Of a DNA stretch of 64,000 bases, positions 19,379-62,771 are shown in pieces. Each line of letters starts with the position of its first letter. The first letter of the stretch is position 1. Both the position numbers and the translations under genes were made by a program. The notes under the pieces were generated by a model. It ran no database searches. It was given only the letters and a program-made list of their open reading frames with translations, and was not told the origin of the DNA. The stretch is taken from positions 1 to 64,000 of the IMG/VR virus record IMGVR_UViG_3300048592_000962. The stretch is one strand, 5' to 3'. The DNA comes from a virus.

Positions 19379-19602
19379 GGCTCGCGCCCCTGGTTTGGGT
19401 GACGAAGCTACCCCGGCTCGCGCTCGCAGTTCGGTTGAAGACACTACGCAGGCTCGCGCACGTAGAACGGATGTCGAATGCCGCTTGGCTCGCAGATGCG
19501 GTTCGGTTGAAGAACCGTTGACGGCTCGCGTATGTAGAACGGATGTCGGATGCCCTATGGCTCGCGGTCACGCTTTGGGTGGAGTGGCATCGCTGGCTCG
19601 CG
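19379..19602. repeat. TIGR-type array 1: six 36-bp dual-spacer units plus end edge
   Basis: Units start at 19379, 19415, 19451, 19487, 19523 and 19559, each exactly 36 bp, with a final edge at 19595. Read on the plus strand, each unit is edge GGCTCGCG (or GGCTCGCA), a 10-base spacer A, an 8-base loop GGNTGNNG, then a 10-base spacer B. Spacer A/B pairs: CCCCTGGTTT/AAGCTACCCC; CTCGCAGTTC/ACACTACGCA; CACGTAGAAC/AATGCCGCTT; GATGCGGTTC/AACCGTTGAC; TATGTAGAAC/GATGCCCTAT; GTCACGCTTT/TGGCATCGCT. Same format as the array beside the Tas-like gene at 24390-25340. Transcribed strand unknown. Confidence 0.85.
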
Positions 19603-20333: not shown

Positions 20334-20684
20334 TGGTGGACGAGCGGGGATTCGAACCCCGGTCCGCGAGAGCCTCAACACAGTCGTTTACACGCGTATC
20401 AACGTTTGCTTGCGGGGTACGTTGCCAACCCACGAGAGCGACACTGCCGAGCCGCTCTGCGCCTCCACCATCCTGCGTTTATCGGTGCAGGACCCGGTTT
20501 TCCTCGTGCATGACGCCCCTTGAGATCTACGAGGACTCAACCTCAGGGACGCTCACGCAGCCTTCGCTGCGTGAGAGATCGCGTTGTCGTTCGCGTTTCG
20601 TGCAGTCGATTTTTTGAGAGGCCTACGACCATCCTCTGCGTGCGATCTGTGCGTCAATCTCCCACGTCGAAACCGTTCTCGCCC
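20334..20684 (-). ncRNA. ssrA: tmRNA
   Basis: The 5' end GGGCGAG pairs with CTCGTCC at the 3' end (7-bp acceptor), followed by A and an encoded CCA. The diagnostic 5' motif GGTTTCGACGTGGGAG is present, and the T-arm is CGGGGTTCGAATCCCCG. The tag reading frame (20603-20553) starts at GCA after AAAAAATCGACT and encodes ARNANDNAISHAAKAA then TGA. The size (351 nt) is normal for a one-piece tmRNA. The tag ends AKAA rather than the common ALAA. It would rescue stalled ribosomes and tag nascent proteins. Confidence 0.95.
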
Positions 20685-22217: not shown

Positions 22218-23081
22218 CTACTTCAGCAGGGCCGTCAGACCCTTGATCCGCTTCGCGCGACCCTCGTCGCCCAGCACCCAGTGCAGGAGGTTCTGAGCGT
22301 CCTCCGAGAGGTTCGCCATGAACTCCTCGTTTTCGATGATCTTGCGCAACACCGGCGTCCCAGGACGGCGCCCGTGCGTGCCCTCCGCGCTCTTGCCGGA
22401 CTTGCGCGCCTGACGCTGACGCTTCGCCTCGGCGACGCCCGTAGCGCCTGCGGCGAGCATCTCGTCGAGCTTCGCGACCTGGTCTTCGCGCTTGAGGTCG
22501 GTCAGCTGAATCGCTGCGGTGAACGTGATCTTCTCCGCTTCGATCGCCTTCTGTACCTTCGCATCGAGGTCGAGAATGCTGAGCAGGTTCTTGATCTGCT
22601 GCTTCGTCAGGCCGAACACGATCGCGAGATCGTCTTCGCCCATGCCCATCCGCATGAGGCGGGCGGCCTTCTTCGCGCGGGTGACGGGATCGTCGTTGCG
22701 GCGCTGCTCGTTCTCGGAGATCGCGATCGCGAACGCGTGGCGATCGTCGGAACGGAGCACGGTCGTCGGAACGAGGATCTCGGGCATCCCCTTTTCCACG
22801 TTCCGACGACTCGCTTCGCGAGCATGGAGGACGCGACGCCGACCCGCCACGACCTCGGGCACGCCGCCGTTCTTGCGAACGGTCACGTTCTCGATGACGC
22901 CGAGAGCCTGGATGTTGCGGATCAGGTTCTCGTCGAGTGGCAGCTTGATGCGCTCGTCGTAGAGCGGGTGCTCCGGACCATCCTGAGTGTCGTGACCGAT
23001 CACGACCAGTTCGTTCGGGTCCATCGCGAACGCGTTGAGGCGCTTGCCGTCGAGTGCGGCGCGGTTTCGCTTCTCTTCCAT
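22218..23081 (-). CDS. ParB-family protein, 287 aa
   Basis: The ParB N-terminal fold is clear: 'VVAGRRRVLHA' (GRRR box, 80-83) and 'SENEQRRNDDP' (123-128 box II), followed by HTH 'GMGEDDLAIVFGLTKQQIKNLLSILDL'. The C-terminus is basic and helical. The length suits a centromere-binding or CTP-switch ParB. No ParA is found in the window, so segregation may use another partner or the protein may regulate transcription or DNA modification. Confidence 0.8.
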   Translation of the reverse strand: MEEKRNRAALDGKRLNAFAMDPNELVVIGHDTQDGPEHPLYDERIKLPLDENLIRNIQALGVIENVTVRKNGGVPEVVAGRRRVLHAREASRRNVEKGMPEILVPTTVLRSDDRHAFAIAISENEQRRNDDPVTRAKKAARLMRMGMGEDDLAIVFGLTKQQIKNLLSILDLDAKVQKAIEAEKITFTAAIQLTDLKREDQVAKLDEMLAAGATGVAEAKRQRQARKSGKSAEGTHGRRPGTPVLRKIIENEEFMANLSEDAQNLLHWVLGDEGRAKRIKGLTALLK

Positions 23082-23793: not shown

Positions 23794-24377
23794 GGCTCGC
23801 GGGGCTCGCGTGGGTGAAGATCGCCTTTCGGCTCGCGTTTCTTTTCGGTGGTAACGGGCAACGGCTCGCGGTTTGGTTCTGGGTGACGATCGCACTCCGG
23901 CTCGCGCTCCTGTTCCGGTTGGCGGGGCTGGCGCGGCTCGCGCTCGCAGTTCGGGTGATGGGACGATGATGGCTCGCGAGTTGTGCTCGGTGGAGGGTGT
24001 TCTGACGGCTCACGACGAGGTAGCGGGTGTCGTAGGGGGGGGGAATGGTTCGCGTCGCGCTTTTGGGTGGGGACAGATGGCTGGCTCGCGTGGTCGATTC
24101 GGGCGTCATACCGTCTTGGCTCGCGCGCTTAGGTTGGGTGTCGGTCAAGTCACGGCTCGCAGCGCTTGTTCGGTGGTCGTTGGGAGATCGGCTCGCGGGG
24201 TGATCGTGGGTGACGGGGCACTCTCGGCTCGCGGCTGCGCTATGGGTGAGGTTCGCCACATGGCTCGCGTCGCGCGTTCGGTGGTCGTATCGCAGATGGC
24301 TCGCGTCATGCCTTTGGTGGCCGTAGTGTCGTCGGCTCGCGCGATGGTTCTGGTTGCCGAGTTCTTCGTGGCTCGCG
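23794..24377. repeat. TIGR-type array 2: sixteen dual-spacer units plus end edge
   Basis: Units begin at 23794, 23830, 23863, 23899, 23935, 23971, 24007, 24047, 24083, 24118, 24154, 24190, 24226, 24262, 24298 and 24334, with a last edge at 24370-24377. Thirteen are exactly 36 bp; the others are 33, 40 (a G9 run in spacer B) and 35. Each reads edge GGCTCGCG, 10-base spacer A ending in a pyrimidine, 8-base loop GGNKGNNG, 10-base spacer B. Spacers differ from unit to unit while edge and loop are kept. Example pairs: GTTTGGTTCT/ATCGCACTCC, CGCTTAGGTT/GTCAAGTCAC, CGATGGTTCT/AGTTCTTCGT. It ends 12 bases from the Tas-like stop codon. This is the format of tandem interspaced guide RNA arrays, not of CRISPR. 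Confidence 0.9.
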
Positions 24378-24389
24378 CGCCTTGGTGAC

Positions 24390-25340
24390 TCAGGGCTGCC
24401 CGTAGCGCTTGGTTCCTCCGTGGACGTGTCCGAGCTTCTCTTCGTGGTATGACGGCCGGACCGGAAGATCGAGCGATTCGCGCCAGCGCTTGTGCAGCTC
24501 GATGAGGAACATCTTGATCATGTAGCGCCGGCAGTCGGCGTCCCGGTGCGCGTCAGAGCGCCCCCACGGACCGATTCCCTCGCCGTTGCAATTCGAGCAG
24601 ACTTCCGTCTTCTCGCCCTTGGGCATGCCGGCTACCTTTCCGGCTACCTTCCCGAGGTGCCCGTGGCCGTCGCAGAGCATGCACTTGACGCGCTGAGAGC
24701 GACGGTAGTGCTTCCGGTTGTCGTAGTAGCTGCGCCACGGAAACGGTGCACCCTCGTCGGTGGCGCGGAACAAGATCTTGTCCTTCCGCTTCACCACGTA
24801 CTCGCCGTTCTCGTCGAGCGAGTAGGCCTTGATCATGGCGTCCGCCAGAACCTTGACCATCTTGCTCTTCAGCCACGGGTTGAACCCGGCCTTGGCTCCC
24901 TTCACGCGCCGCTGAGCGCGACCATCTGGCGCGACGGCGAGGCCGGCGTAGCTCCACATCTGAGACACGCACTCCTCGATCTCGATGCGGAAGCTGCTGA
25001 GCAACACCGCCGCCATGGTCGGTCCGACGCCGCGCTGATGAGTCAGCCAGTTGTCGAAGATGTCGATCCCCTTCAGCCGCTTGGCGACGTGCAGGAGCGC
25101 TTTGTGCTCCAGCTCTTCGAGTTGTTCTTCCATCGCGCCGAGGAACTCCTGGTCGATCTGGTCGAGCGCGGGGCGGCTCTCCTCGGTGCCTCGAACCGAG
25201 TCGGGGCGGGCTCGGTTGCCCGTCGCGATGCGGAACTTCTGGAGGTCGTAGAGGAACGACGCGGAGTGACGGACCGAGATCAGCTTGGCAAGCCTCGGAT
25301 CGGTGGGCTGAGACGGGGTGACGGTTTCTTCGCTGCTCAT
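24390..25340 (-). CDS. tas: Tas-like Nop-domain protein of a TIGR-Tas system, 316 aa
   Basis: A helical/coiled-coil segment (~60-95) leads into 'HQRGVGPTMAAVLLSSF ... MWSYAGLAV' (101-136), the helix-hairpin-helix core shared by IS110 transposase C-termini (Transposase_20) and Nop-type snoRNP proteins. Two CxxC knuckles (CMLCDGHGH 220-228, CSNCNGEGIG 248-257) form a DnaJ-like zinc insert, and the family C-terminal helix follows (RRYMIKMFLIELHKRWRESL). There is no RuvC/DEDD or HNH nuclease domain, so it resembles nuclease-less Tas proteins. The dual-spacer array lies 13 bp downstream. Likely role: binding ~36-nt guide RNAs for DNA recognition. The main alternative is a domesticated IS110-like protein. 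Confidence 0.75.
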   Translation of the reverse strand: MSSEETVTPSQPTDPRLAKLISVRHSASFLYDLQKFRIATGNRARPDSVRGTEESRPALDQIDQEFLGAMEEQLEELEHKALLHVAKRLKGIDIFDNWLTHQRGVGPTMAAVLLSSFRIEIEECVSQMWSYAGLAVAPDGRAQRRVKGAKAGFNPWLKSKMVKVLADAMIKAYSLDENGEYVVKRKDKILFRATDEGAPFPWRSYYDNRKHYRRSQRVKCMLCDGHGHLGKVAGKVAGMPKGEKTEVCSNCNGEGIGPWGRSDAHRDADCRRYMIKMFLIELHKRWRESLDLPVRPSYHEEKLGHVHGGTKRYGQP

Positions 25341-26644: not shown

Positions 26645-27279
26645 GGCACGACCTCGATTTCCGGTACGCCCTTCTTTCCCAGCGAGAGGCACACCTTCTC
26701 GTTCGACTCGGTCTTGCCGAGCACCAGGATCCCCCTTGCGTGCAGCTCTTTGCAGCTCGGGTCCTTGAACACTCGCTCCATCCAGTGCTTCTGAAGAGGG
26801 ATCGTCACGAACGACGCGACCGATCCTTCGAGGTGTGGAGCGAGCGGCCCCTCGACGTCCAAGTGGAACTCGATGGAGCTGTTGAAGTCGACTTCGAGTG
26901 TTCCCTTGAAGCACGGGGCGCGGCGCAGGACCTTCGTGGCAGCCTTGCGCGCCTGGTGAGCCGGACTCGATTTGACGATCAACTCCACCTTCTTCTTGAC
27001 GGCGGCAATGTCTTGCCAGCGGACGTACACGTCGAGCCACGGGCCCATGTGGCTGAGGTTCGTGGCGCCACAGGCGACGGTGTCGTCGAGCCCGTAGAGG
27101 ACGAGGGCGGCGAGCGCGATGCAGCTGGAGGGCTTGGTGGAGCCTCCGAGACGGATCATGTTGGCGGTCGCCAGCACGAGGTCGTCGGAGAGGTCGCAGC
27201 CATCGGAGACGGCGCGACCGTCGGTGAAGTGAACGGTGTGCGGACGGTCGCCGTTGCAGCACGAGATACGCGATTTCAT
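26641..27279 (-). CDS. Hypothetical protein in the MoxR/VWA operon, 212 aa
   Basis: ATG 27279 overlaps the VWA gene stop (ATGA). Mixed alpha/beta, with 'GTLEVDFNSSIEFHLDVEGPLAP' and a basic middle. It is the third gene of a tightly coupled set with the MoxR ATPase and VWA protein, so it may be a substrate or adaptor. Family unknown. Confidence 0.5.
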   Translation of the reverse strand: MKSRISCCNGDRPHTVHFTDGRAVSDGCDLSDDLVLATANMIRLGGSTKPSSCIALAALVLYGLDDTVACGATNLSHMGPWLDVYVRWQDIAAVKKKVELIVKSSPAHQARKAATKVLRRAPCFKGTLEVDFNSSIEFHLDVEGPLAPHLEGSVASFVTIPLQKHWMERVFKDPSCKELHARGILVLGKTESNEKVCLSLGKKGVPEIEVVP

Positions 27280-28631
27280 TGCTCTGACTCCTTGCTGATC
27301 TTCACACCGATGTACTCTGCCCAATCCGGCACGAGGTTGGAGCGCTCGCCGGATACATCGCACACGATCAGAGGCACGGGCGTCGGCACCTCCGGCCACG
27401 GCGTGAGGCAATCGGTGATCACTACGATTCCGTCCGGCCTGTGTTCGAGAGCCTCTTCGATTCCAACGCACATGTCCGTGCCGCCGCCTCCGCCGAACTC
27501 GATCTCGGCCCCTCCGGACACCACTTGCTTTCCGTGTACTTGTTCGTCGACAGAGATGAACGTCGGTGTCACGCCGAGTCCTTCGCAGAGGCTTTCGACG
27601 GTCCCGCGCACGACGCCGAGTTCTCGATTGCCCATCGAGCCGCTCGTGTCGCCGACGATAACGATCTCCGGCTTCGGCCTCCGCATGTGCGGGAGCATCA
27701 CGTTGCCCAAGGCAGTCGCACGCCGGGACGGGCGTTGCCACGTGTGGAGCACCATGCCGGACGCCATCGAGATGGTGTTGCGAAGCTTCCCGTCGAGCAG
27801 CTGATCCCAAGGGATCGGCTCCACGACCAGCATCTTCTGAGCCCAGCGCAGCCAGCCTCCGGGTACCCCTTTCCCCTGTGCATTGGCTGACAGAATGGCC
27901 TCCGCGACCTGGCGCTCCACGTCGAGCCAGTCTGCGTCCGACACGCCATCCGCATCCGTGTCGACGCCGGGCTCACCGTGCTCCCACGCGCGCTTCACTC
28001 CATGTGACCCGCTACCACAGTCGTGCGACGAAGAGGCGACGCTGTCACTGTCTCCGTGATCGTCTCCCTTTTCGGAGAGAATCGGAAGCGGAATGCCCTT
28101 CGTATCATTCTTCGAGCGAGGGGAGTCGACGATGTCGAAGTAGTATTGTTCCCACGTCTTGCCCGGCTCCAAGCCGAGCATGTACGGCTGCCAGTACGTG
28201 CCGACTTTGCCGGCGTGCTTGCCTTGCAGGATTGTCCACGATGGGATCTGCGTCAGCCTCCTCATCGGGATCTCTTGCTGCGAGGTAATGATTGCCTCAG
28301 CAATGTCGTCGTTGATCTCCATGTCCTGGCAGACGTTCACCAGAGCCGCGTTGAAGTAGCTCACGCCCAGCTGGGTTGCGCGATCGCAGTGATGCCGCGT
28401 GACGTGGCACAGCTCATGGTAGATGCAGAGCACGAGCTGATCGATGCTCAGTTGAGCAACGAACTTCGGATTGAAGTAGACGCGTCTCCAGCGGTCGACG
28501 GACATCGTTGGCGTTCCGTCGGTTTCGTAGAACACCAGTGCGTAGATGGCGCGCTGCAAGTATGGCATAAGCCAAACAAGTTTTGCCCGCGCATCGCGCA
28601 TGGCGCCTAACTCTTTGCTTTGGCTCTTCAT
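27276..28631 (-). CDS. VWA-like metallopeptidase (DUF2201 type), 451 aa
   Basis: The N-terminal domain has YHELCHVTRHH (H72-E73-x2-H76), a gluzincin zinc site. The middle is acidic and low complexity with a Ca-binding-like run (DTDADGVSDADW). The C-terminal VWA-like domain has DTSGSM (328-333) as MIDAS DxSxS. This matches the DUF2201 putative metallopeptidase family, which pairs with MoxR ATPases. Probably forms a chaperone-like or protease complex with the ATPase encoded just upstream. Confidence 0.82.
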   Translation of the reverse strand: MKSQSKELGAMRDARAKLVWLMPYLQRAIYALVFYETDGTPTMSVDRWRRVYFNPKFVAQLSIDQLVLCIYHELCHVTRHHCDRATQLGVSYFNAALVNVCQDMEINDDIAEAIITSQQEIPMRRLTQIPSWTILQGKHAGKVGTYWQPYMLGLEPGKTWEQYYFDIVDSPRSKNDTKGIPLPILSEKGDDHGDSDSVASSSHDCGSGSHGVKRAWEHGEPGVDTDADGVSDADWLDVERQVAEAILSANAQGKGVPGGWLRWAQKMLVVEPIPWDQLLDGKLRNTISMASGMVLHTWQRPSRRATALGNVMLPHMRRPKPEIVIVGDTSGSMGNRELGVVRGTVESLCEGLGVTPTFISVDEQVHGKQVVSGGAEIEFGGGGGTDMCVGIEEALEHRPDGIVVITDCLTPWPEVPTPVPLIVCDVSGERSNLVPDWAEYIGVKISKESEQ

Positions 28632-29749
28632 TGCGCCTTGTAGTCGAAGTTCGCGCGCTTGAGCGCCGCGCCGATTACCTTCAGCTCGTCCGGAGGACGA
28701 TTCCAGAGGTCGTTGGGCGCGTTTGTGACGAGCGCCCGCGCAGCGGGGACGGTCAGATCGATGGGTACGCGCACGAGCACCTTGAACGCGGCGTACACGC
28801 GCTTGAGGCGCTCTTCCTCATCGAATCGAGGAGAGCGGTCGCTTGCGGCGCTGGCGATGCCATCGAGCGTCGCCATGATCTGGTCCTGCCGGTCTGGAAG
28901 CGGCGTGTTGATCGGATCGGCGAGGTACTCTTCCGGATCGCGCAGGTCGAGGTTGACGACCCACTGAGAGAACTCGCTCTCCGCGCTTCCTCCCACGCAT
29001 CCCGCGAGCATCAGCTTGCCGACGAGGCTGCGTTCGTTGTGCCCGACCGCCGCCGCAGCCGCGAGCATGCGTGCGGCGACGTCCCAGGTGCGCTTCGAGG
29101 GCCACGCTCGGCCCTGTGCGCTGCGCTCTTGGGGCTCGGCGTCGATCAGATCTGGCCGACGCCGCAGAAACGACACGATGAGCGCTCGTTTCGTCTGCAC
29201 GAGGTCGCGCCAGTTCGCAGGCAGCTTCGCGACTTCGGGCTCGGGCCAGCCGCCGAGCATGCCGTCGAAATACTCCTCGGGGTCGCTTCTCCAGTCGAGG
29301 TGCACCCAGCGATTCGCGGTGGCGGCGGTCAGCTGGTAGACACCCGTGGACGTGGACGCCGGATTGCCGGCGGCGATGAAGCTCGTCTCGGCCGGCAGCT
29401 TCACGTCGCCCACGTAGCCGTCTTGGACGACACGTAGCGCGGACGCTTGGACGGTGGCCGGAGCGGTGTTCAGCTCGTCGAAGAACACAGCGCCTCCGCC
29501 CTGTTCGATGCACTCCGCTGCCCAGAGCGGCGGGTGCATGCGAACACCCTTCTCGGTGACGACGGGAAGGCCGGCCTGGTCGGTCGGTTCGCGTGTCGAG
29601 AGCGCGATTGTCCAGATGGGGAGCTTGAGGGCTCGGGCGATGGCTTCGACGCTCCGCGTCTTGCCGGTGCCCGGCGCGCCCCAGAGGAAGATCGGCTGGT
29701 GAGCTTGCATAGCAAGCTGCAATACGAGCAGGTGACTACTGACCTTCAT
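28628..29749 (-). CDS. MoxR-family AAA+ ATPase, 373 aa
   Basis: GAPGTGKT Walker A at 24-31, VFFDEL Walker B at 88-93, sensor-like 'FIAAGNPAS' and Arg-finger region 'TAATANRW', all typical MoxR. It overlaps the VWA gene by 4 bases. MoxR/VWA pairs act as metal-dependent chaperones in complex assembly; the viral target is unknown. Upstream (29816-29811) is a TTGACA that could serve as -35. Confidence 0.88.
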   Translation of the reverse strand: MKVSSHLLVLQLAMQAHQPIFLWGAPGTGKTRSVEAIARALKLPIWTIALSTREPTDQAGLPVVTEKGVRMHPPLWAAECIEQGGGAVFFDELNTAPATVQASALRVVQDGYVGDVKLPAETSFIAAGNPASTSTGVYQLTAATANRWVHLDWRSDPEEYFDGMLGGWPEPEVAKLPANWRDLVQTKRALIVSFLRRRPDLIDAEPQERSAQGRAWPSKRTWDVAARMLAAAAAVGHNERSLVGKLMLAGCVGGSAESEFSQWVVNLDLRDPEEYLADPINTPLPDRQDQIMATLDGIASAASDRSPRFDEEERLKRVYAAFKVLVRVPIDLTVPAARALVTNAPNDLWNRPPDELKVIGAALKRANFDYKAQ

Positions 29750-60056: not shown

Positions 60057-62771
60057 GTGGGTCTGGCTTACAAGCGGAGTACGACCAAAACGGCCCGTGC
60101 CTACGAGCGATCGAGGGGCATGGAACCGAATGGTGGTCTTCGGCCGAATCCCGGCGTGACTGCGCTCATGACAGTCAATCCGCGACGTGGTCGTGGTCGC
60201 GTGCGTGAGAACCCGTTCCAGTGGATCGAGGGTCGAGGGCAGCGACATCGGCACGTTTCGAAGCCCTATGCGTCGCTGGATGCGGCTCGTGGGTGGAAGA
60301 AGCGGAGTCCGGCTACCAAGGCACGTCTTTACCCCGTCGATGAACGTGGGACGATCGTCTCGCGTCCCCTCAGCTCGAAACTCACAGGAAACAGAGGGAG
60401 TAGCAGCATGGCGTACAACATCGGTGCACTCCGAAGGGCGATGCGATCGAACCCCAGGGGTACGGGCTCGTCCATGTCCGAGCACGCCTCGACGGGCGGA
60501 GTGTCGGTGCGCTCGAACGGCCGCAAGCGTCGGAAGGCGTCGCGCAAGGCGAGCCGTCGTCGCGTCAGTCGCAACCCGAAGTACGTGGTGGTGAACCGCA
60601 AGCGACGCTCGCGCAAGGCGAGTCGTCGTCGGGTGACGCGCAACAGCCGTCGTCGCCGCAGCCGCCGGACTTCGGTGCGTCGGAACAGTCGTCGTCGTCG
60701 GAGTCGTCGCACGTCGATGCGTCGCAACAGCCGTCGTCGCCGCAGCCGCCGGACTTCGGTGCGTCGGAACAGCCGTCGTCGTCGGAGTCGTCGTCGGATC
60801 TCGCGCAACCGGTCGAGCCGGTCGAGCGCGTCGACGGCGGCGTACCGCAGCGGCTACGATCGGATCTTCGGCAAGAAGAAGAGGTCGTCCAAGCCCGCGT
60901 CGGCTCGCAAGACGTCGAAGAAGAGCGGACGGAAGTCGTCGCGCCCGATTCGCACGATCGAGATCGAGGAGACGGTCACCGAGATCAAGCCGCGTCGTCG
61001 CAAGTCTTCGCGGAAGTCCTCGCGGAAGTCGTCCGCTCGCAAGTCGAGCCGTCGGTCGTCCGCCAGGGGTCGTCGTTCGTCGAGGAAGAGCGGCCGTCGG
61101 TCGCGTCGTTCCTCGAAGAAGGGCGGCTACTACTTCGGTCGTCGTCGGGTCAGCAAGCGCGGGAAGGAGTACCTCGACAAGTACATCACCCGCGGCTACA
61201 TGCCCTCGGTCGCGCCGGTGTACCGCACGGGCAAGTCTCGTTCGGGTCGCCCCGCCGTCCTCGTGTACCCGCCGGGTACGGGTCACGGTCGTCTCTCCTC
61301 GCGGAAGGGTCGTGGTCACACGTCCAAGGGTCGCGGCAAGCGTCGCGTGAGCGCTCGGGCGTACGGCGCGAGCTTCTTCGGGGCGAGGAAGCGCCGCGTG
61401 ACGGCGAACCGCCGTCGGAGCCGTCGTCGCAGGAGCCGTCCGGGTCTCTACGCGAATCGTCGGCGGAGCCGTCGTCGCCGGAGCCGTCGGTCGAGTCTGC
61501 GTCCCAACCGTCGCAGGAGCCGTCGGAGCCGTCGTCGCCTGACCCGCAACCTGCTCACGACGAGCAAGGCGCGGTTCTCGGGTTCGGGCAAGAGCCGCAA
61601 GGGTCGCCCGACGGGCAAGACGTTCCAGGTGCTGATGTACGGTCCGAAGTCCAAGACCAAGAGCGGTCGGCGGATGTCGGGCTACCCGGTCTACGTTCCG
61701 GGTCACGTCGTGGAGCGTGGTGCGGTGCGTCGCTACCGGAAGCTCGGTGGTGCGGCTCTGGACGCACATCGTCGTGCGACCAGCGCGGGATACCGCGAGA
61801 GGAAGAAGTACCCGAAGCGTCGCGGCGTGACGCGGAACAGCCGCAGGAGCAGGAGGACCAGCATGCGTCGGAACCCCAGGTACGTGGTGGTCAATCGCCG
61901 CCGTCGCAGTCGTCGAAGCAGCCGCAAGGCACGGCTTCGCAGGAACCAGACGGTGTTCGGTGCCGACCTCACGCGCGACGTGCTCAAGCCGGTCGCCGGT
62001 GGCACGGCGGGCTTCGTGGCGGCTCGTCTGCTCTCCAACGGTCTCGCCAACGTCGAGATGCTTCGCGGCATCCTCGACAAGGACAAGAGCGCGGCGGAGG
62101 CGGGCAACACGAAGATCGCGGCGAACCTGCTCGGGATCGTGGCGACGCTCGGCCTGGCCCGGAAGGTCAAGGTCATCGGCGACAACCGCGGTGCCCTCGT
62201 CACGGGCATGGGTCTCGCGCTCGCCGATCGTCTGCTCGCGAAGTTCGCGGGTGACTCGGGCTACCTCTCGGGCTTCGGCGAGTACGTCTCGCAGCCGCTC
62301 GGGGAGTACGTCTCGCAGCCGCTCGGCGCCTACGTCTCGGACCCGTCGATGGGCGAGTACGTCGACCAGCCGCTCGGCGCCTTCGAGGCGGCGGCCGGCA
62401 TGGGCACGCTGTACGCGGCGGCCGGCTACCACGAGGGCATCGATCCCGCCGATCAGGGCTCGGTCGACGGTCTCATGGACGTCATGGAAGCGGCGGCCGG
62501 CATGGGCAGCCCGATGATGTACGCGACCGCGGGCATGGGCACGCTGTACGCAGCGGCCGGCATGGGCGCCGAGGCGGATGCGGAGCTTCAGGCGTACTAC
62601 GCCAGCCAGCAGCCGCCCTTCGTCTCGACGCAGACGCCCACCGATCTCGCGCGTCCCGTCACGCACGTGATGCCCCACGACAAGCGCGTTCCGACGTCGC
62701 TCGTCACGCCCGAGGGCAAGGGCTACGCGGGTGGTCTCTTCGCGCGCAACCTCTTCGCGGGGATGTTCTGA
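60057..62771 (+). CDS. Giant Arg/Ser-rich DNA-binding-like protein with hydrophobic C-terminal domain, 904 aa
   Basis: GTG 60057 follows GGGAGCAG; ATG 60409 (MAYNIGALRRA) after GGAGTAGCAGC is an alternative. Residues ~150-640 are packed with SRRRRSRR/RRTSVRRN-type repeats, protamine- or histone-tail-like. A 42-bp DNA repeat is tandem at 60642, 60684, 60726 and 60768. The C-terminus has 'FGADLTRDVLKPVAGGTAGFVAARLLSNG', repeated EYVSQPLG and AAGMGTLYAAAG motifs, and ends KGYAGGLFARNLFAGMF. That C-terminal domain is shared with the next gene. Likely abundant and DNA-condensing or virion internal. Confidence 0.6.
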   Translation: MGLAYKRSTTKTARAYERSRGMEPNGGLRPNPGVTALMTVNPRRGRGRVRENPFQWIEGRGQRHRHVSKPYASLDAARGWKKRSPATKARLYPVDERGTIVSRPLSSKLTGNRGSSSMAYNIGALRRAMRSNPRGTGSSMSEHASTGGVSVRSNGRKRRKASRKASRRRVSRNPKYVVVNRKRRSRKASRRRVTRNSRRRRSRRTSVRRNSRRRRSRRTSMRRNSRRRRSRRTSVRRNSRRRRSRRRISRNRSSRSSASTAAYRSGYDRIFGKKKRSSKPASARKTSKKSGRKSSRPIRTIEIEETVTEIKPRRRKSSRKSSRKSSARKSSRRSSARGRRSSRKSGRRSRRSSKKGGYYFGRRRVSKRGKEYLDKYITRGYMPSVAPVYRTGKSRSGRPAVLVYPPGTGHGRLSSRKGRGHTSKGRGKRRVSARAYGASFFGARKRRVTANRRRSRRRRSRPGLYANRRRSRRRRSRRSSLRPNRRRSRRSRRRLTRNLLTTSKARFSGSGKSRKGRPTGKTFQVLMYGPKSKTKSGRRMSGYPVYVPGHVVERGAVRRYRKLGGAALDAHRRATSAGYRERKKYPKRRGVTRNSRRSRRTSMRRNPRYVVVNRRRRSRRSSRKARLRRNQTVFGADLTRDVLKPVAGGTAGFVAARLLSNGLANVEMLRGILDKDKSAAEAGNTKIAANLLGIVATLGLARKVKVIGDNRGALVTGMGLALADRLLAKFAGDSGYLSGFGEYVSQPLGEYVSQPLGAYVSDPSMGEYVDQPLGAFEAAAGMGTLYAAAGYHEGIDPADQGSVDGLMDVMEAAAGMGSPMMYATAGMGTLYAAAGMGAEADAELQAYYASQQPPFVSTQTPTDLARPVTHVMPHDKRVPTSLVTPEGKGYAGGLFARNLFAGMF
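60642..60809 (+). repeat. 42-bp tandem repeat (14-residue unit)
   Basis: Units at 60642, 60684, 60726 and 60768 encode NSRRRRSRRTSVRR-type repeats. Units 1 and 3 are identical and unit 2 differs mostly at silent positions, giving an 84-bp higher-order repeat and pointing to recent duplication. Confidence 0.8.

Follow-up and report, generated by a model that had tools for sequence, protein, structure and literature searches.

The TIGR-TasA systems, which phages can carry, are loci in which a Nop-domain protein lacking a nuclease is encoded beside a dual-repeat array; the edge and loop repeats of the array, 8-12 nucleotides (nt) in length, have ends in common and alternate with 9-nt spacers at a 36-nt period, and a ParB gene is sometimes a neighbour (Faure et al. 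2025, PMC12045711). The genuine targets of the spacers and the mode of array growth are open questions according to those authors (PMC12045711). Here we describe a locus with these same features in the first 64 kb (the window; GC 62%) of a 159,872-base virus record from IMG/VR (IMGVR_UViG_3300048592_000962). The kind of system is thus already known, and the locus is an additional TasA member. We consider it highly probable that it is a phage-borne TIGR-TasA system that performs RNA-guided DNA binding without cutting, system and mechanism being taken jointly. The basis directly in hand consists of the homology and fold of the protein, the anatomy of the arrays, the presence of three arrays and one tasA gene, the association of array and protein throughout the family, and the lack of a self-target.

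A first-pass annotation, made from the letters of the window alone, had assigned a Nop-type core to the protein encoded at 24390-25340, and this assignment stands, with TasR and TasH as the best matches by both sequence and fold. When the single sequence was compared with solved structures by phmmer, TasR (9mty, E 2.6e-10) and TasH (21kl, E 1.4e-7) came first, and a nine-sequence profile (hmmsearch) matched the same two at E 3e-24 and E 6e-17. Foldseek with an AlphaFold2 model again placed TasR and TasH at the top, followed by the IS110-family recombinases IS621 and ISCro4. The structural similarity to Tas, Nop and IS110 proteins on which the annotation hung is thus present. The tasA gene is intact, with a strong coding signature (codon-position GC 0.63/0.43/0.85), its product retains the family-invariant residues in the alignment, and it is the only Tas protein found by a profile search of the open reading frames (ORFs) of the whole record. 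Pfam found no HNH or RuvC match in the protein, and because no nuclease domain was matched we place it in the TasA type of the published scheme.

The matches to transposases require comment. The protein might be a degenerate IS110-type transposase accompanied by bridge-RNA remnants and not part of a TIGR system at all, a reading that draws on a weak Pfam match to Transposase_20 (E 0.22), on membership of phrog_4285 (E 5.8e-38), labelled 'transposase, integration and excision', and on the appearance of IS621 and ISCro4 in the Foldseek list. However, TasR and TasH score far better, neither the N-terminal RuvC/DEDD domain nor the serine catalytic C-terminal domain of IS110 had a Pfam match above cutoff in TasA, and long dual-spacer arrays are foreign to IS110. 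We regard this reading as very improbable and the PHROG label as probably misleading. The only other Pfam match was also weak (DnaJ_CXXCXGXG, E 0.011, below cutoff) and corresponds to a pair of CxxCxGxG motifs at residues 215-259, which form an insertion relative to the aligned relatives; among 104 family ORFs such a pair occurs only in L009, at another site. The motif leads us to guess that the insertion might bind zinc.

The arrays have the anatomy published for TIGR. On the sense strand, each unit consists of an edge repeat, CGCGAGCC(R), a 9-nt spacer A, a loop repeat, CGNCANCC(R), and a 9-nt spacer B, with a period of 36 nt. The pattern GGCTCGCG-N10-GGNKGNNG-N10-GGCTCGCG, with up to three mismatches tolerated, matched 19 times in the window against 0.13 expected from shuffled sequences, none of which reached 19; 13 of the 19 matches lie in array 1, which starts about 12 base pairs (bp) beyond the tas stop codon. 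The annotation had described this array of alternating blocks past the stop, although it missed two further arrays, and its 36-bp period holds; its 16 units become about 15 complete ones, some of 33, 35 or 40 nt, together with a truncated 27-nt unit. Truncated units lie at its far end. One unit of the locus carries a poly-C expansion. The two 10-base segments between the blocks are variable, as had been stated, but each is better divided into a box-C purine and a spacer. A purine is nearly always the first base of the ten that follow edge and loop, and since this tenth base belongs to the repeat, a spacer length of 9 nt is the best reading. We take the minus strand, which is also that of tasA, as the sense strand of the array because both repeats there end in CC plus a purine, the published position of box C.

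Among verified full-length units the edge columns carry 1.3-2 bits of information, edge and loop columns together mostly 1-2 bits, and most spacer columns are near 0. The two blocks are retained in all three arrays. Edge and loop have matching ends, CG...CCR in this phage instead of the AG...CCA found in both repeats of the fetched relatives, as would be expected if a symmetric dimer held them. In array 2, units 2 and 4 and units 3 and 5 are partly similar, giving a 72-bp sub-period, and arrays 1 and 2 have one spacer B in common (AACTGCGAG). Array 3 is about 55 kb from the tasA gene. A 36-bp period is also 12 codons, and a protein-coding tandem repeat of variable and constant residues would share it; array 1 is indeed open in one minus-strand frame. 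Array 3, however, has stops in all six frames, the 35- and 40-nt units break the frame, and 64 of the 86 arrays of relatives with at least six units have no open frame. Coding is largely excluded as a general explanation, and for this phage we find it barely credible.

The association between array and protein extends across the family. All 11 IMG/VR relatives obtained from a single-protein search have a 36-nt-period array directly adjoining the tas gene, which bears out the TIGR-Tas-like reading of the annotation, and a period-36 array was called in 90 of the 102 sequences of a larger set that contains some repeated fetches. Units in the relatives have an edge AGCGAGCCA, a loop AGAAACCCA or similar, and 9-nt spacers. 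Conservation of spacers by descent, which the annotation had named as evidence to the contrary, was not found: related phages differ in nearly all of their spacers. One relative has a named host. In the Microcystis phage Mvi-JY20 (PP438412.1; L148:9470-9800) a tas homologue annotated as hypothetical is followed by an unannotated 36-bp array that ends in a stem and a T run; the host is Microcystis viridis, and small-RNA sequencing in a laboratory host could become possible.

By analogy with the published relatives, from which transcription, processing, the dimer and dual-strand binding are extrapolated, the minus-strand arrays would be transcribed, and cleavage within the edge repeats would release guide RNAs of about 36 nt with two 9-nt spacers each. 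A single guide would be gripped by two copies of TasA, the Nop protein, acting as a dimer at the box C/D-like ends in which edge and loop match. At a target of about 18 bp the guide would then open the DNA: one strand would pair with spacer A, and the neighbouring stretch of the opposite strand with spacer B. Without a nuclease domain, the complex would most likely bind and bend the site, blocking transcription or replication and not cutting; RNA-guided DNA binding is the most likely activity. That the biological role is to block genes of the host or of rivals is a first guess, which we offer tentatively.

Several observations weigh against the locus being a working TIGR-TasA system. None of this phage's guides had a target among the phage, metagenome-assembled genome (MAG), rRNA and tRNA sequences searched. 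TIGR arrays are typically truncated at the ends and followed by an intrinsic terminator, yet no terminator or sigma-70 promoter is clearly placed at the ends of the arrays here (terminator-like sites number 7 against 6.5 by chance). Confidence in the AlphaFold2 model, which begins with coiled-coil helices, is moderate (pLDDT 68, pTM 0.68) and is low in the insertion. The Nop coiled-coil region is shorter than in the relatives by about 45 alignment columns, and because of this and the unusual zinc-type insertion the activity of TasA is not assured. The locus might be a TIGR system that is decaying and inactive in this phage, as the irregular and truncated units, the poly-C expansion and the shortened coiled coil would suggest; the intact gene with its coding signature, the retained invariant residues and the retention of edge and loop blocks in three arrays make this unlikely.

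What a functional TIGR-TasA system of this phage would aim at was approached through the spacers. Taking the published 3' overhang of 8 nt together with the C-5 rule (PMC12045711), we derived that a target, read along one strand, has spacer B first and then spacer A in reverse complement; the cut position is worded in two ways in that paper, and the chosen order is consistent with the overhang length. Apart from the arrays themselves, the genome of the phage contains no site for the 32 verified units at two or fewer mismatches, compared with an average of 1.1 for shuffles. A search with spacer pairs, of the kind that the annotation had proposed, gave nothing above the controls: when 897 unit pairs were compared with all fetched phage and MAG stretches, shuffled pairings and wrong geometries did as well. 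Spacers do not recur between unrelated arrays beyond chance. The targets are most likely non-self, either host genes or rival elements. Two candidates in 23S rRNA, found with a small library at adjacent sites (17/18 for L084, 15/18 for L094), were treated as chance because a larger library gave one-mismatch matches for shuffles and wrong geometries too. In that larger rRNA and tRNA library only a tRNA-matching unit remained at zero mismatches; its three variants had been added by hand to the list tested, the automatic parser having missed these irregular units.

This unit comes from related phages that form a group (L004, L005, L007 and L008) with arrays of 22-30 units. L004 and L005, whose TasA proteins are 99.7% identical, have five units in common, and phage pairs at 87-90% TasA identity have exactly one, the other units having turned over. 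The kept unit is irregular in edge and loop and has the spacers CTAACCAA (or CTAACCAG) and ATAGCTCAG. Taken in the dual-strand geometry of the published systems, it gives ATAGCTCAG-TTGGTTAG or ATAGCTCAG-CTGGTTAG, the D-arm of tRNA, a match that was first noticed by eye and tested afterwards. It matches the tRNA-Met gene of a Flavobacteriales MAG at 17 of 17 positions, and the match stops exactly at the spacer boundaries. Of the genomes scanned, 118 from each of two phyla, the D-arm pattern was present in 52 of the first phylum and 15 of the second, and a reversed control pattern in none; the genomic sites examined were all inside tRNA genes (24/24), and the D-arm sequence is absent outside arrays from the phage contigs searched. 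L036 and L039 have a variant of the kept unit with ATAACTCAG, which had no match in 236 genomes. As judged from these matches, bacterial tRNA genes are a strong lead as the target of the related phages' kept guide, not a demonstrated target. The kept unit also lends indirect support to targeting of both DNA strands by the two spacers. Whether phage TIGR-TasA arrays hold, alongside guides that change fast, a conserved one dedicated to host tRNA genes seems to us an evenly balanced question; if so, the phage's RNA-guided DNA binder would sit on those genes, either to take over the host or because they serve as an integration or regulatory site. Any biological role assigned to the system is a guess; the kept guide is the best clue to it, and a first concrete one to the aims of such phage systems. 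Another unit, slightly changed, is common to the otherwise different arrays of L053, L040 and L042 (AATAATCA/ACATTTCG).

The arrays also bear on how such loci grow. Among 8438 within-array unit pairs, two or fewer mismatches were seen in 103 spacer A pairs and 85 spacer B pairs, compared with 52 of 16,876 when A was set against B within arrays and about 0.2% per spacer between unrelated contigs. Sixteen within-array pairs are similar in both spacers, and similar pairs are commonest one or two units apart. This pattern suggests that arrays may grow by duplication of units followed by divergence; similar spacers directed against related targets would give a similar signal, and within-array similarity does not separate the two. 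The comparison of relatives thus yields two testable leads, the conserved tRNA-matching guide and the signature of duplication and divergence.

The features of the locus are collected in Table 1. On the minus strand the order is the MoxR-like ATPase, the VWA/DUF2201 gene, more ORFs, tasA, array 1, two small ORFs and the ParB-like gene. Genes for a MoxR ATPase and a VWA/DUF2201 protein lie near tas in many related loci, among them those of L034, L036, L050, L059, L089 and L105 (the locus counts in the table come from phmmer); the main text of Faure et al. makes no mention of MoxR.

Table 1. Features of the TIGR-TasA locus; positions refer to the window unless marked otherwise.
Feature	Position	Strand	Evidence
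tasA: Nop-domain Tas protein without nuclease, 316 amino acids	24390..25340	-	phmmer, hmmsearch, Foldseek, PHROG
TasA insertion, residues 215-259, two CxxCxGxG motifs, DnaJ-type zinc-binding pattern	24564..24698	-	Pfam, alignment
TIGR array 1, about 15 complete units	23794..24377	-	pattern matches
TIGR array 2, 6 units, repeats as in array 1	19379..19602	-	
TIGR array 3, repeats as in arrays 1 and 2	record 79808-80350 (L012:15808-16350), outside window	+	
ParB-like gene, two small ORFs between gene and array 1	22218..23081	-	HTH_ParB E 1.2e-10; phrog_1033 ParB-like E 5.6e-33
VWA (DUF2201) gene upstream of tasA	27276..28631	-	Pfam; 10 relative loci have a similar gene close to tas
MoxR-like AAA ATPase upstream of tasA	28628..29749	-	Pfam; 13 relative loci have a similar gene close to tas

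With its ParB-like gene on the tasA strand and two small ORFs between, the locus might belong to the TasA-TasParB operon variety, in which a parB-like gene shares an operon with tasA across loci. The same neighbour invites a different account of the repeats, as a parS-like iteron cluster bound by the ParB-like protein and serving segregation, tasA being incidental. Clustered 8-bp repeats of fixed period near a parB gene have the classic look of such sites, the ParB-like gene adjoins array 1, and ParB genes are in an operon with some tasA genes (Faure et al., PMC12045711). Against this, similar two-block arrays lie beside tas in the relatives, a ParB gene was found in only one relative locus, and iterons need neither two alternating blocks with matched ends nor near-random 9-nt segments of fixed length. 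We judge ParB binding quite improbable as the explanation of the repeats. The relatives likewise gave no support for ParB as a conserved partner of tas, ParB having been found in that single relative locus.

Three other features of the record were noted. A tmRNA gene lies between array 2 and the ParB-like gene (20334-20684, minus strand; Rfam RF00023, 122.7 bits; tag ANDNAISHAAKAA). A SNF2-type helicase gene (record 127265-130486; L015:3265-6486, minus strand), with matches in phages of many hosts, has an apparent intein-like insertion, spotted by eye in the translation and running from CILEGEKVLTRSG... to ...VHN before CHRIGQ. A long ORF on the plus strand (60057-62771) has recurring arginine/serine-rich segments (SRRRRSRRTSVRRN-like), with tandem repeats at 60639-60793.

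CRISPR-Cas systems have repeats of about 25-36 nt, spacers of similar size, and cas genes. The arrays described here are like CRISPR arrays in having repeats with variable spacers, but differ in their two kinds of 8-9 nt repeats, their 9-nt spacers and the adjacent Tas protein, and the annotation was right to set them apart. No Cas-type domain was found by Pfam in the neighbouring genes scanned, the whole record not having been scanned for cas genes. Another likeness is offered by the Acidianus tailed spindle virus (NC_029316), in which the Tas homologue gp16 is directly followed by an interspaced array; that virus is archaeal, and its array has a 38-bp period and other repeats and is annotated only as a repeat or possible CRISPR. 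The IS110 bridge-RNA recombinases (IS621, 8wt6/8wt9; ISCro4, 9t56) have a related Nop-like RNA-binding core and a two-part guide that pairs with both DNA strands, whereas the phage protein has no match to their catalytic N-terminal domain, and the locus has no element ends and has arrays in place of one bridge RNA. TasR (9mty) and TasH (21kl, 9w04) have the same Nop core and are the best sequence and fold matches, and differ in that the phage protein has no match to a RuvC or HNH nuclease domain. From the TIGR-TasA systems themselves this phage is distinguished by the CxxCxGxG pair in the C-terminal part of the protein, by the shortened coiled coil and by three arrays, one of them distant from tasA. 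The locus adds to that group a clear TasA member whose three arrays are dispersed and whose protein carries an insertion with a zinc motif.
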